Shown piece after piece: positions 33,827-37,845 of a stretch of DNA of 64,000 nt; the stretch's first letter is position 1, and each line of letters starts with the position of its first letter. The notes beneath the pieces are model-generated. The model saw only the letters and a list, made by a program, of their open reading frames with translations. It was not told the DNA's origin and ran no database searches. Origin of the DNA: Sphingomonas sp. SUN039 (GTDB lineage Bacteria; Pseudomonadota; Alphaproteobacteria; Sphingomonadales; Sphingomonadaceae); contig NZ_CP096972.1 of the NCBI RefSeq assembly GCF_024758725.1, positions 912,001-976,000 on the forward strand. The letters are read 5' to 3'. Both the position numbers and the translations under genes were made by a program.

Positions 33827-34597
33827 CTAGCAGCCCGAAAGCGCTTCGGTAAGGGTCGGAATGGAGCCATAATGGGTAAGGTCGAGGTGCAGCGGAGTGA
33901 CCGTGATAAACCCCTCGGCAATCGCTTCCAGATCGGTGGCGTGCCCCGGTGTCTCCTGCGTCGCGCCCAGCCCGAACCAGTAATAGGGATAGCCGCGCGG
34001 ATCAGTGCCCTTCACGATCCGCGCGCGCCCGTAATCGTGGAATCCCTGTTCGACCACCTTCACGCCGTGCACAGCCTCGGGGGCGAGCGCAGGAAAGTTG
34101 ACGTTGACTAGAGTGCGCGGCGGCATGTCGGCGGCGATCAGCGGACGCAGCACGCGTTCGCCCCACGCCTCGGCAGCGGCGAAGGGCACGGTGTCGCCCA
34201 TCCCCTCGCGCGCATAAACCTGGCTGAGCGCAATCGAGCGATAGCCCGCCAGCGTGCCTTCCATTGCCGCGCTGACCGTGCCCGAATAGGTGACGTCCTC
34301 GGCCAGGTTCGCGCCGCGATTGACGCCCGACAGGATCAAATCGGGCTTGGCCTCTCCCATCACGACCCCCAGCGCCATCATGACCGCATCGGTCGGCGTG
34401 CCGCTGACGGAGTACCGGCGCTCGTCATGCTTGCGGACCCGCACCGGGCGGCTGAGCGTCAGCGAGTGCCCCGCACCCGATTGCTCCTCCTGCGGGGCAA
34501 CGATCCAGATGTCGTCGCTTAGCGTGCGGGCAATCGCCTCCAGCACCGCCAGCCCCGGCGCGTGGATGCCGTCGTCGTTGGTCAGCAATATCCGCAT
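33827..34597 (-). CDS. surE: 5'/3'-nucleotidase SurE
   Basis: A 256-residue nucleotide phosphatase. It opens [16 protein letters not shown], the metal-binding ND-D signature, and continues with VAPQEEQSGAGHSLTLS, ILSGVNRGANLAEDVTYSGT and NVNFPAL, all diagnostic. SurE dephosphorylates nucleoside monophosphates and short polyphosphate, with a role in stationary phase. The start ATG 34597 overlaps the stop of serS by one base, so the two are coupled. Confidence 0.97.
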   Translation of the reverse strand: MRILLTNDDGIHAPGLAVLEAIARTLSDDIWIVAPQEEQSGAGHSLTLSRPVRVRKHDERRYSVSGTPTDAVMMALGVVMGEAKPDLILSGVNRGANLAEDVTYSGTVSAAMEGTLAGYRSIALSQVYAREGMGDTVPFAAAEAWGERVLRPLIAADMPPRTLVNVNFPALAPEAVHGVKVVEQGFHDYGRARIVKGTDPRGYPYYWFGLGATQETPGHATDLEAIAEGFITVTPLHLDLTHYGSIPTLTEALSGC

Positions 34598-35898
34598 CAG
34601 GGCACCAGCCGCGTCGCGCCGCCCATGTACGGGATCAACACTTCGGGCACATGCACGGCGCCGCCGTCCTGCTGGTAATTCTCCAGCACCGCGACCAGCG
34701 CGCGCCCAACCGCGACACCCGATCCGTTGAGCGTATGGACGAAGCGCGTGCCTTTCTCGCCGGTAACCCGATAGCGCGCGTTCATCCGCCGTGCCTGGAA
34801 GTCGCCGCAGTTCGAACAGGACGAAATCTCGCGATAGGCGTTCTGCCCGGGCAGCCAGACTTCGAGGTCGTAGGTCTTCTTCGCCGTGAATCCCATATCC
34901 CCCGCGCACAGCAGCATCCGGCGATAGGGCAGGTCGAGGCGGTCGAGGATCGCCTCGGCCGCCAGCGTCATGCGTTCATGTTCGGCAACGGACTCTTCTG
35001 GCGTCGTGATCGACACCAGTTCGACTTTCTCGAATTGGTGCTGGCGGATCAGCCCGCGCGTGTCGCGGCCTGCCGACCCCGCTTCTGATCGAAAGCATTG
35101 CGTCAGCGCGGTGAACCGCATCGGCAGGTCCGCGTCGGAAAGGATGCGCTCGCGCACCTGATTGGTCAGGCTGACCTCGGACGTCGGAATCAGCCAGCGC
35201 CCGTCGGTCGTCTGAAACGAATCCTCGCGGAATTTGGGCAATTGCCCCGTCCCGAACATCGCCTCGTCGCGGACCAGCACCGGCGGCGCGACTTCCTCAT
35301 AGCCGAAGTCGCGCGTGTGCACGTCGAGCATGAACTGCCCCAGCGCCCGCGACAACCGTGCAGCGGGGCCGCGCAGATAGGCAAAACGCGCACCGGAGAC
35401 CGTCTGTGCCGTCTCGAAATCGAGGCCCAGCGCCGGACCGAAGTCGAAATGCTCGCGCGGCGCAAAGGCAAAGGCCGCACGTCGTCCCTCCTCACTGACA
35501 ACGACATTGCCCGCCTCGTCCGCGCCATCGGGAACTTCGGCATCGGGCAGGTTCGGCAGGGCAGCAAGCATAGCGTCCAGTTGCGCACCGGTGTCCGCCG
35601 CTTCGCGCTCCAGTCGTTCGATCTCGGCCTTGTCGCCCAGCTTCGCCTTCAATGCCTCGATTTCGGCAGCAAGGGCAGGGCGGCCGGCATCGCTCGCCGC
35701 TTTCATCCGGCCCGTCAGCGGCCCGATCGCGGTCGAGATGCGATTGCGCTCGGCAACGGCCTGTTCGGCCATCGTCATGCGCGCGCGGCGGATCGTATCG
35801 AGCTGGAGGAGCGTTTCCGACGCGGCGGCGACCCCGCGGCGCGCGAGCGCTGCGTCGAAGGCGGCAGGGTCTTCGCGGATCAGGCGGATGTCATGCAT
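34597..35898 (-). CDS. serS: Serine--tRNA ligase
   Basis: A 433-residue class II synthetase. The N-terminal long coiled coil (residues about 30-100) recognises the long variable arm of tRNA-Ser. Motif 2 is in [21 protein letters not shown], motif 3 in [17 protein letters not shown], and serine-binding TSEVSLTNQ is present. Length is normal. It is the first gene of the serS-surE-nlpD-like operon, which is a common order in proteobacteria. Confidence 0.97.
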
Positions 35899-35950
35899 GG
35901 CCCGGCGCTATGGCGTCGGGCCAGCACGCTTGCAACCTCCGGTCGCTGGT

Positions 35951-37036
35951 TCAGGCGGTCTTGCGCTTGGCGAAGCGGCTGCGGGCGACGAGACCCGCTG
36001 CGCCCAAACCGAACAGCACGACCATCGGCGGTGCAGGCACCGGGTTCGGACCACCCGGATCTCCACTCGTGCCGCTGCTCGTGATGCCTGACGAGGTGCT
36101 GCCGCTCGTCGAGGACGAGGTGCTGCTGCTGGTCGAGGTGCTCGACGTCACATTCCCGCTCGATGCGCTTGAGGTACTCGACGTCACATTGCCGCTCGAC
36201 GAGCTGCTGGTCGAGGAACTCGTGCTGACGTTGCCTGAGGACGACGAAGAGACATTGCCCGACGACGAGGAAGAAACATTGCCGCTCGACGAAGACCCGC
36301 CGGTGGAGCTGGTCGTGGTCGATGACAGACCGCCGGTCGACGTCGAACTCGACGTCGATCCGCCGCTCGTCGAGGACGACCCGCCGCTGGTGGACGATGT
36401 GCTCGAAACACCGCCAGTAGTACTCGACACGCCACCGGTTGAGGTCGAAGTCGATCCTCCGGTGGTTGAGAGACCGCCAGTCGATGTCGAACTACCGCCC
36501 GAACCGCCGCTCGATGTCGAGGACGATCCGCCGGTCGTGGTCGATACGACAACACTGCCGCCGCCCCCGCCCGAACCGCCGAAGAAGCCACCTGCAAAGA
36601 AGCCGCCGCCGAAACCGCCGCCGCCCGAACCGCCGACAACGATCGGGACTGCGCCACCGCCGCCACCGGCAAAGGCCGCTTCACGCGGTGCCATCGGGGG
36701 CATCGGCATCCCGCCGCCGGTCACTGTCGTGGTGACCGTGCGCGTCGTGCCGCACGGTACGCGCGTCATGACCATGCGGCGCTTGCCGCCGATAACTTGC
36801 GAGGTCCGCATCGCGCATCCCGAGGAGGCCATCACAACGCGGCGAACGCGCTTGACGATGCGTGTCGGCTTGACGTGATGGACGCGCGCTACGCGGACGG
36901 CGCTGCCCTTTTTCGTCTTGTAGACGCTCGCCGGGCGCGCATCGGGCTGGCTGGCGACATGCATCGCACCACCGCCGACAATCGCACCGCCGCAGGCCGC
37001 GACGCACAGTTTGGCAAGAGCCATCTTCACCGACAT
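35951..37036 (-). CDS. Ser/Thr/Gly-rich secreted protein with PEP-CTERM-like anchor
   Basis: A 361-residue low-complexity protein. A likely N-terminal export segment (MALAKLCVAACGGAIVGGG) is followed by a basic region, a Gly-rich region (GGSGGGGFGGGFFAGGFF) and about 160 residues of Ser/Thr/Gly with repeated SSSSSGNV units. The C-terminus, NPVPAPPMVVLFGLGAAGL then VARSRFAKRK, has the three-part shape of a PEP-CTERM signal: a P-x-P motif, a hydrophobic helix and a basic tail. Such proteins are cut by an exosortase and often form extracellular matrix or floc material and can be heavily glycosylated. No exosortase gene is visible in this window. The repeat-rich DNA makes the opposite strand look coding too. 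Confidence 0.75.
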   Translation of the reverse strand: MSVKMALAKLCVAACGGAIVGGGAMHVASQPDARPASVYKTKKGSAVRVARVHHVKPTRIVKRVRRVVMASSGCAMRTSQVIGGKRRMVMTRVPCGTTRTVTTTVTGGGMPMPPMAPREAAFAGGGGGAVPIVVGGSGGGGFGGGFFAGGFFGGSGGGGGSVVVSTTTGGSSSTSSGGSGGSSTSTGGLSTTGGSTSTSTGGVSSTTGGVSSTSSTSGGSSSTSGGSTSSSTSTGGLSSTTTSSTGGSSSSGNVSSSSSGNVSSSSSGNVSTSSSTSSSSSGNVTSSTSSASSGNVTSSTSTSSSTSSSTSGSTSSGITSSGTSGDPGGPNPVPAPPMVVLFGLGAAGLVARSRFAKRKTA

Positions 37037-37374
37037 AATATCGTCCTGTTCATCAAAGGCTGTTCCGGCGACAACATGTGTGACCGGGACTGTCCAGAAG
37101 GCGAGGAGTGCGGCGATAATTCACAGTCCGCAACCCGGTTAACCCATATTCGGCACCCGATTAGCGCCTTTTCCCACATCTTGCGCCAACGATCACGGTT
37201 AATGTTTCATTTAGGGGCTGTTTTGCCCCTCAAACCTTGTTTTCGTAACCTAAATTTTCATTTCGGGTCGCGTGCTTGTGCCGCCTCGGGCCGCTGTCTA
37301 TAGGCCGCGCCAACGAACGGGTCTGCATCCGAACGCCGGTTACGGGCGGGACGGGACCGTCAATGGAGATCGGG
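37037..37374. other. Divergent intergenic region between the PEP-CTERM-like gene and dksA
   Basis: A 338-base stretch without a gene that is more AT-rich than its surroundings (37130-37265). It must hold the promoters of the two divergent genes. It contains a perfect short hairpin, AGGGGC..GCCCCT, at 37213-37230, and two GGTTAA elements near 37136 and 37197. No certain -35/-10 pair could be picked. The hairpin lies too far from either gene to be called a terminator with confidence. Confidence 0.6.
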
Positions 37375-37845
37375 ATGGCGACGGCATTGGACACGTCGGG
37401 ATTCGGACAGCAATCGGGTGGGCATGTGAGCGCGAACGCAAACGACACGCACTACCGCCCCTCGGCGGACGAACCCTTTATGAACGACAAGCAGCTTGCC
37501 TATTTCAGGGCAAAGCTGATCGACTGGAAAGAAGCGATCCTGCGCGAATCGCTCGATACGCTGGCGACGTTGCAGAACGAGCCGCTGCGCGAGCCCGATG
37601 TCACCGACCGCGCATCTAGCGAGACCGACTGGTCGATCGAGCTTCGGACCCGCGACCGGCAGCGCAAGCTGATTTCCAAGATCGACGCCGCGCTGCGCCG
37701 GATCGAAGAGGGCGAATACGGCTATTGCGAAGTCACCGGCGAGGCGATTTCGCTGGGTCGGCTGGAGGCGCGCCCGATTGCGACAATGACCGTCGAGGCC
37801 CAGGAACGCCACGAGCGCAATGAAAAGGTCTCGCGCGACGAATAG
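37375..37845 (+). CDS. dksA: DksA family RNA polymerase-binding regulator
   Basis: A 156-residue protein of the TraR/DksA family, which binds the RNA polymerase secondary channel and works with ppGpp. The coiled coil runs from about KQLAYFRAKLIDWKEAIL through RKLISKIDAALRRIEEGEYG. The zinc-finger region is YGYCEVTGEAISLGRLEARP, in which only one Cys of the usual four survives, as in other alphaproteobacterial DksA proteins. ATG 37375 follows GGAGATCGGG and is preferred over ATG 37363. The upstream region is AT-rich. Confidence 0.93.
   Translation: MATALDTSGFGQQSGGHVSANANDTHYRPSADEPFMNDKQLAYFRAKLIDWKEAILRESLDTLATLQNEPLREPDVTDRASSETDWSIELRTRDRQRKLISKIDAALRRIEEGEYGYCEVTGEAISLGRLEARPIATMTVEAQERHERNEKVSRDE

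Follow-up and report, generated by a model that had tools for sequence, protein, structure and literature searches.

Exosortases and PEP-CTERM proteins have been linked to flocs and to polysaccharide adhesion, as described in excerpts of two reports (PMC9850573, PMC12188702). A cyanobacterium whose exosortase had been deleted was reported to be no longer motile and to have lost its biofilm and its adhesion to a polysaccharide (PMC12188702), and the protein PepA of Aquincola was assigned a role in flocs but not in biofilm, with pepA being RpoN dependent (PMC9850573). From composition, Haft 2006 (PMC1569441) proposed in the accessible part of the text that PEP-CTERM proteins carry O- or N-linked sugar on Ser, Thr, and Asn residues and have a role in the matrix. 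The same source places sigma-54 sites in front of 99 of 167 proteobacterial PEP-CTERM genes, and such a site is therefore not strictly defining for them. In species with an exosortase, sets of at least twenty PEP-CTERM proteins are frequent (PMC3237569, in excerpt), which makes the purpose of the enzyme hard to name. In a Sphingomonas strain, an exosortase-associated amidotransferase was listed among transposon hits for colony morphology (PMC11340318, likewise in excerpt). Our search of the open-licence literature found no paper joining exosortase and PEP-CTERM with Sphingomonas, none on PEP-CTERM together with Sphingomonadaceae or Novosphingobium, none on exosortase together with Erythrobacter, and none joining exosortase, PEP-CTERM, and serine-rich proteins.

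The window analyzed here is a stretch of 64,000 nucleotides from Sphingomonas sp. SUN039, whose genome consists of one contig of 3,528,835 bases (3.53 Mb). The original prediction placed within it a Ser/Thr/Gly-rich protein with a PEP-CTERM-like sorting signal, and the open reading frame was indeed confirmed, with an ATG start (Table 1; C1:947951-949036 in contig coordinates). Its leader is conserved and basic-hydrophobic, with 12 invariant columns within the first 24 residues of alignment A2, which comprises 23 chosen sequences out of 30 leaders. Its residue 9 is a Lys and its hydrophobic run is short, so that it is no textbook signal peptide. Spaced glycines were also seen in this near-invariant segment, both here and in the relatives. 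A lipoprotein reading was dropped since L011 and L035 have no cysteines in their leaders. The leader profile yielded no match to solved structures at E ≤0.1, the protein had no match in PHROGs, and the whole protein matched no NCBIfam model at E ≤5. AlphaFold2 returned a mean pLDDT of 34 for the single sequence, which, being made without an alignment, is weak evidence for disorder.

Table 1. Features of the locus, in positions of the window
Feature	Position	Strand	Basis
Whole gene, candidate XrtA client	35951..37036	-	361 aa; ORF list and relatives
Leader, residues 1-29 (MSVKMALAKLCVAACGGAIVGGGAMHVAS), putative signal peptide or signal anchor	36950..37036	-	Strong conservation in alignment
Basic segment, then Thr/Val- and Pro-rich linker, residues 30-122	36671..36949	-	Alignment A2
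Gly/Phe block (GGSGGGGFGGGFFAGGFFGG), residues 123-160	36557..36670	-	Sequence and relatives
Ser/Thr/Gly stretch, residues 161-325; length and sequence vary in relatives	36062..36556	-	Comparison, TRF, composition
SSSSGNV/SSSSSGNV units, inside the Ser/Thr/Gly stretch	36137..36295	-	Sequence
Tripartite C-terminal tail, VPAPP + hydrophobic + basic, residues 330-361	35954..36049	-	Tail profile A1
serS, next gene downstream, same strand, 52 bases away	34597..35898	-	TIGR00414, 475.7 bits
dksA, divergent upstream neighbor; start codon provisional	37276..37845	+	TIGR02420, 136.6 bits

A search of the genome for an exosortase, the check proposed with the original prediction, identified a single one by PF09721 (E ≤0.001), namely XrtA (C1:778562-779338), which scored 326.8 bits with TIGR03109 against a cut-off of 208. 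The xrtA gene does not lie beside the gene studied here but approximately 169 kb away. The gene set of an XrtA system was found as well, as 9 of the 11 other proteins of the XrtA cluster exceeded their NCBIfam cut-offs. These 11 comprise the XrtA acyl-CoA ligase, decarboxylase, export protein, chain-length determinant, kinase, and outer-membrane protein, together with an ATPase, a deacetylase, a FemAB-like protein, a glycosyltransferase, and an amidotransferase. The models exceeded, apart from TIGR03109 itself, were TIGR03098, 03099, 03027, 03007, 03015, 03006, 03019, 03087, and 03108; the kinase fell narrowly under its cut-off (TIGR03018, 212.9 versus 230.65) and the outer-membrane protein clearly so (TIGR03016, 46.4 versus 90.85). 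The response regulator PrsR is encoded elsewhere in the genome (683.7 bits, cut-off 502.6).

The explanation we prefer, and hold to be highly probable, is that the protein is a client of XrtA. The conserved N-terminal leader would export the protein, the VPAPP-hydrophobic-basic tail would hold it in the inner membrane, and XrtA would process it there. The processed protein would then be released or transferred to the outer surface, where the long disordered body of Gly/Phe and Ser/Thr/Gly segments would help to keep exopolysaccharide from the XrtA cluster attached to the cell. For export, for membrane retention through the tail, for processing, and for surface delivery we rely on analogy with work on exosortases, and we infer these steps here, as we do the surface location, the contact with exopolysaccharide, and any sugar decoration. 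The effect of PepA on flocs but not on biofilm was counted against this explanation, and so were the distance between the gene and xrtA and the atypical leader.

The body of the protein agrees with what had been foreseen for it. About half of the protein was said to be repeats, and the Ser/Thr/Gly stretch accounts for 165 of the 361 residues (46%), with S, T, and G making up 90% of the richest 150-aa stretch. The named SSSSSGNV unit occurs in three exact copies and once with four serines (SSSSGNV). Tandem Repeats Finder (TRF) reported eight short arrays of 2.0 to 3.8 copies each over positions 35900-37100, and a long tandem array at the DNA level was not seen in this interval. All six Ser codons are used (TCG 36, AGC 20, TCC 8, AGT 7, TCA 6, and TCT 3), which, together with the shortness of the arrays, suggests that composition has been retained and argues against recent duplication. 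It had also been suggested that the repeat number may vary between strains. Variation of the stretch is supported at the level compared, which is between species, the ends being fixed and the body length variable. Among 72 proteins, we found 276 pairs with a near-identical leader and tail, as judged on 30 aa of the leader and 24 aa of the tail, and the length from the start to VPAPP was equal in only 6 of these pairs, the median difference being 26 residues and the largest 116. The bodies of some relatives (L019, L029, and L030) are rich in Asn/Gln instead, which suggests disorder as the property retained.

This body would fit the sugar and matrix proposal of Haft 2006, and a sharper form of the preferred explanation makes it a covalent acceptor of the XrtA-cluster sugar, that is, the core of a proteoglycan. 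The glycosyltransferase, chain-length, export, and FemAB-like proteins of the cluster, as well as a body that retains its composition while changing in sequence and length, speak for such a core, as does the suggestion of O- or N-linked sugar in the accessible text of Haft 2006 (PMC1569441). However, some bodies are Asn/Gln-rich with little Ser/Thr (L029: S 11%, T 5%), and in 8 of 72 relatives the body contains no N-x-S/T sequon, by which N-glycosylation was ruled out as a fixed feature. On balance, we consider a proteoglycan core unlikely.

The C terminus (PNPVPAPPMVVLFGLGAAGLVARSRFAKRKTA) has the predicted order of a P-x-P motif, a hydrophobic segment, and a basic cluster, and the same tripartite build was found in all of the 25 tails of alignment A1, chosen out of 28 closed tails with three near-duplicates omitted. 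Across these tails P-A-P-P is invariant and the Val in front of it changes once, so that the P-E-P signature of PEP-CTERM proteins is replaced by P-A-P in all 25. Of the two refutations set out with the original prediction, a genome with no exosortase did not apply, while a C terminus outside the PEP-CTERM profiles did so formally, as the tail alone stayed under both cut-offs, with 14.7 bits for TIGR02595 (cut-off 16) and 20.4 bits for PF07589 (cut-off 20.7; whole protein, 13.9). In a six-frame search of the genome with PF07589, the tail was still the best hit (18.8 bits against the cut-off of 20.7), followed by one of 12.9 bits. We attribute this near miss to the Ala in place of the Glu of P-E-P, and judge that the co-occurrence with XrtA described below, in total as well as within genera, outweighs the missed cut-offs, which leaves the original prediction supported. 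Profile A1 gave 61.9 bits for the gene's own tail, which is part of A1, and 14.8 bits for the next hit in the genome. Among 30 proteins scanned (the gene and 29 relatives; set A4 holds 29 of 71 relatives and the window protein), matches at E ≤0.1 numbered 6 for TIGR02595 and 17 for PF07589, with best E values of 0.006 and 0.008, respectively. NF038119, the model of the MHFG family PEP-CTERM protein, matched 10 of the 30 weakly (best E value of 0.00088).

The region upstream of the gene comprises approximately 240 non-coding bases, up to the dksA ORF as listed. Measured by the −24/−12 consensus and by single-letter shuffles, none of 76 upstream regions of the gene family contained a sigma-54 site scoring at least 10 of 12, and the distribution of scores was near that of the shuffles. 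In contrast, such scores were reached by 5 of 14 other exosortase-tail genes of relatives, drawn from 12 genomes with starts guessed by script, two of the five (L160 and L162) coming from one genus. A CtrA-like box was present in only 1 of the 76 regions. Recurrent blocks were observed between dksA and the gene, at about −180 and −115 in the relatives; for example, TTTGGGAC occurred in 27 and GGTTAACG in 34 of the 76 regions. The blocks are neither a sigma-54 site nor a clear CtrA box.

These data bear on the possibility that the protein belongs, as a PEP-CTERM protein of the usual kind, to the PrsK/PrsR/sigma-54 regulon, comparable to the floc protein PepA. PrsR is available in the genome, the tail resembles PEP-CTERM tails, and the locus L158 of genome G201 bridges the two kinds of tail. 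This locus (G201:C1:628056-628448) is a 172-aa frame with a weak leader match (E value of 0.006), a Gly-rich body, and a VPEP tail, and is perhaps a divergent family member joining the VPAPP and VPEP kinds, in which case the gene family is wider than counted; weak leader matches of this kind were found in three further genomes of that genus. Nevertheless, the sigma-54 score, reached in none of the family regions but in 5 of the 14 other tail genes, and the signature, which is VPAPP and not VPEP, make membership of this regulon decidedly unlikely.

The link between the client candidate and XrtA was analyzed in 298 genomes of the bacterial family. The leader, counted at E ≤0.001, was present in 173 of them, and a strong XrtA match (E <1e-55) in 195, of which 194 exceed the cut-off. 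Both were found in 169 genomes, the leader only in 4, XrtA only in 26, and neither in 99. In a further group of 56 genomes, the XrtA model gave nothing better than a weaker match (E values of 1e-35 to 1e-48), which was taken as another exosortase, and none of these 56 had either the leader or the tail. Tail profile A1 matched in 189 of the 298 genomes, 184 with and 5 without XrtA, leaving 11 XrtA genomes without the tail and 98 genomes with neither; since A1 was built from tails of the gene family, its hits are not independent of that family. There was one A1 tail in 145 genomes, two in 39, and three in 5. Applied to 58 chosen genomes, leader profile A2 matched 12 of the 26 XrtA-only genomes and 1 of 32 others (G283). 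Eight of the 12 matches (E <1e-5) were counted and four (E values of 0.0005 to 0.006) were not, which changed the numbers to 177 with both, 4 with the leader only, 18 with XrtA only, and 99 with neither. As this rescue took in every one of the 26 XrtA-only genomes but no more than 32 of the remaining 103, the resulting table leans to co-occurrence, whereas the 169/4/26/99 table is free of this bias. Because the genomes are related, Fisher values on the leader and tail tables overstate independence.

The comparison within genera points in the same direction. In 12 genera with a mixed XrtA status, the gene family was found in 41 of 41 genomes with XrtA, two of which rest on the A2 profile search, and in 3 of 15 genomes without it. 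These genera were drawn from the genomes listed; outside that listing are 27 genomes, several of uncertain genus, in which the XrtA model had no match. In 8 of the 12 genera, all 11 XrtA-negative genomes are without leader and tail, which points to a dependence on XrtA; we infer that the gene was lost there. Two features of PEP-CTERM proteins, the phylogenetic co-occurrence with an exosortase and the exosortase in the same genome, are thus present. Co-occurrence is, nevertheless, no proof of cleavage.

Exceptions occur on both sides. Five genomes (G070, G117, G135, G172, and G235) carry the tail, and four genomes the leader, with no exosortase detected by PF09721. G070, G117, and G135 are drafts of 200 to 450 contigs, but little is missing from the assemblies of G172 (99% complete, in 3 contigs) and G235 (100% complete, in 50 contigs). 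Conversely, 18 of the 195 XrtA genomes are without a counted family member even after the A2 search, and 12 of the 18 have at least 15 matches to A3, a profile of 13 tails of the VPEP and VPAPG types (counts include the family member and are limited to 26 scored candidates per genome). It looks as if there were two regimes, with either one core client or many clients. One further genome, G012 (91% complete), has 18 PEP-type tail matches and no match to the XrtA model; perhaps the assembly lacks its exosortase, or a different enzyme takes this role.

A possible remnant of the gene was found in G283, a genome of one contig (99% complete) with no strong XrtA, whereas the other five sampled members of its genus have both. 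Between the genes that flank the intact gene in G006, which we take to be ruvB and acnA, G283 contains a stretch that resembles the leader and is cut off by a stop (E value of 1.0e-3 with the A2 profile), and the flanks of the two genomes share 81 to 83% DNA identity. A direct tblastn search of the G283 stretch with the G006 leader gave no significant match (E value of 4.9), so that the reading of this truncated stretch as a relic of the gene, which we favor, draws on profile and position.

As a rival reading, the protein could be a membrane protein that both of its ends anchor, that XrtA does not process, and that simply persists in the same lineages. Cleaved signal peptides are expected to be less conserved than this leader, the tail could be a plain anchor, and G172 and G235 keep the gene with no exosortase detected. 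On the other hand, the 11 XrtA-negative genomes of the eight mixed genera, all without leader and tail, are not what such a protein predicts, and the invariance of P-A-P-P in 25 tails would be superfluous for a plain anchor. We therefore regard the double anchor as very unlikely and retain the XrtA client as the preferred reading.

The place of the gene is largely conserved among relatives. dksA adjoins the gene in 28 of the 30 best matches. The named loci are the best 80 of 219, selected by pattern, and 76 of them were parsed at first. Of these, 75 extend at least 1 kb upstream, with dksA found in 71, and 71 extend at least 2 kb downstream, with serS found in 67. Other surroundings occur, however, as neither serS nor dksA was present within 7 kb around the gene in G006 and G172. 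In 77 named loci the end of the gene falls within the contig, and in 75 of these leader and tail lie in one open frame. The damaged copies are L098, with a frame shift in the Ser-rich part, and L140, with an early stop after residue 44; the damage is either real or an assembly error. One locus, L104 (QDFQ01000001.1), belongs to a record of Arthrobacter sp. TPD3018 and shows the Sphingomonas-type order dksA-gene-serS; the record is perhaps mislabelled.

The joint recurrence of leader and tail in relatives shows that the ORF is not due to chance. An antisense ORF (35652-36878, plus strand, 408 aa, rich in Asp/Glu/Pro) mirrors the Ser/Gly codons of the gene and was judged spurious. Although low-complexity sequence gives rise to long spurious ORFs and this antisense frame spans most of the gene, the protein-level conservation of leader and tail in this frame and the encoding of Ser by all six codons reduce to practically nil the chance that our ORF is such an artefact or that the antisense frame is the real gene.

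Proteins with VPEP or VPAPG tails were found in other genomes, and profile A3 was used to look for further candidate clients here. It scored 43.4 bits for the window protein and 20.5 bits (E value of 0.0019) for a second candidate, L182 (G000:C1:2675403-2675489, minus strand), while the next hits stayed at 15.6 bits or less; among the A3 hits of the genome, L182 to L184 were read, and the weak tail hits were read in part, the remainder lying below 16 bits. L182 encodes approximately 70 aa with the tail IPEPGDAALFVVAVVGLIIGRQ and consists of a signal-like leader joined to a PEP-CTERM tail and little else (IPEPGDAALFVVAVVGLIIGRQASRR). The sequence upstream of it holds no good sigma-54 site, the best one scoring 6 of 12. 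L182 is a weak but plausible second PEP-CTERM candidate. The reading of a single dedicated client was consequently dropped, and the family member stands as the main, but not the only, candidate client in the genome.

The protein is probably an overlooked XrtA client, acting as a surface or matrix protein. More tentatively, and with some doubt on our side, it may be a near-obligate core client of XrtA in the Sphingomonadaceae that curation has missed, silk- or mucin-like, with frozen ends and a free disordered body, outside the sigma-54 regulon, a main reason why XrtA and its exopolysaccharide cluster are kept in most of this family, and possibly the protein core that binds the polysaccharide. 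One recognizable gene that tracks XrtA across environmental bacteria would offer a tractable test of the role of exosortase A and of the binding between client and exopolysaccharide. The best E values among the 30 proteins scanned (0.00088 for NCBIfam and 0.008 for Pfam) suggest that the curated models miss a class of likely clients. Furthermore, a body whose composition is retained while its sequence and length turn over is a useful case of selection on disorder.

Compared with the known systems, the candidate is closest to the PEP-CTERM proteins (TIGR02595/PF07589), with which it shares the tripartite tail, an exosortase in the genome, a Ser/Thr-rich body, and the approximately 240 non-coding bases upstream, as far as these proteins are described in the accessible part of Haft 2006 (PMC1569441). 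It differs from them in VPAPP replacing P-E-P, in scores under both cut-offs, in the missing sigma-54 signature, and in the recurrence of the same gene with the same leader across the family. The MHFG family (NF038119) is weakly matched by some relatives but not by the window protein itself at the NCBIfam threshold given above. As for PepA of Aquincola (NF033554), the likeness lies in the exosortase-type tail, NF033554 ranking first in NCBIfam for the 32-aa tail taken alone, at 19.6 bits; this is far under the cut-off of 80 bits and covers only the last 23 positions of the model. In addition, pepA is RpoN dependent according to the excerpted report (PMC9850573), whereas no sigma-54 signature precedes the present genes. 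With the dedicated one-enzyme/one-target sorting systems (PMC3237569, in excerpt), the locus has in common that very few candidate targets exist in the genome. Unlike them, it has a second candidate target in L182, and the genes of target and enzyme lie approximately 169 kb apart, in contrast to the 16 of 21 single-target rhombosortase pairs described there as lying within one gene of each other. To judge from the sequence, the protein would work like a PEP-CTERM client of an exosortase, and by the cut-offs it stands outside the curated PEP-CTERM family. What is new here is a putative XrtA client that has no sigma-54 promoter signature, carries a VPAPP signature of its own, and is widely shared.
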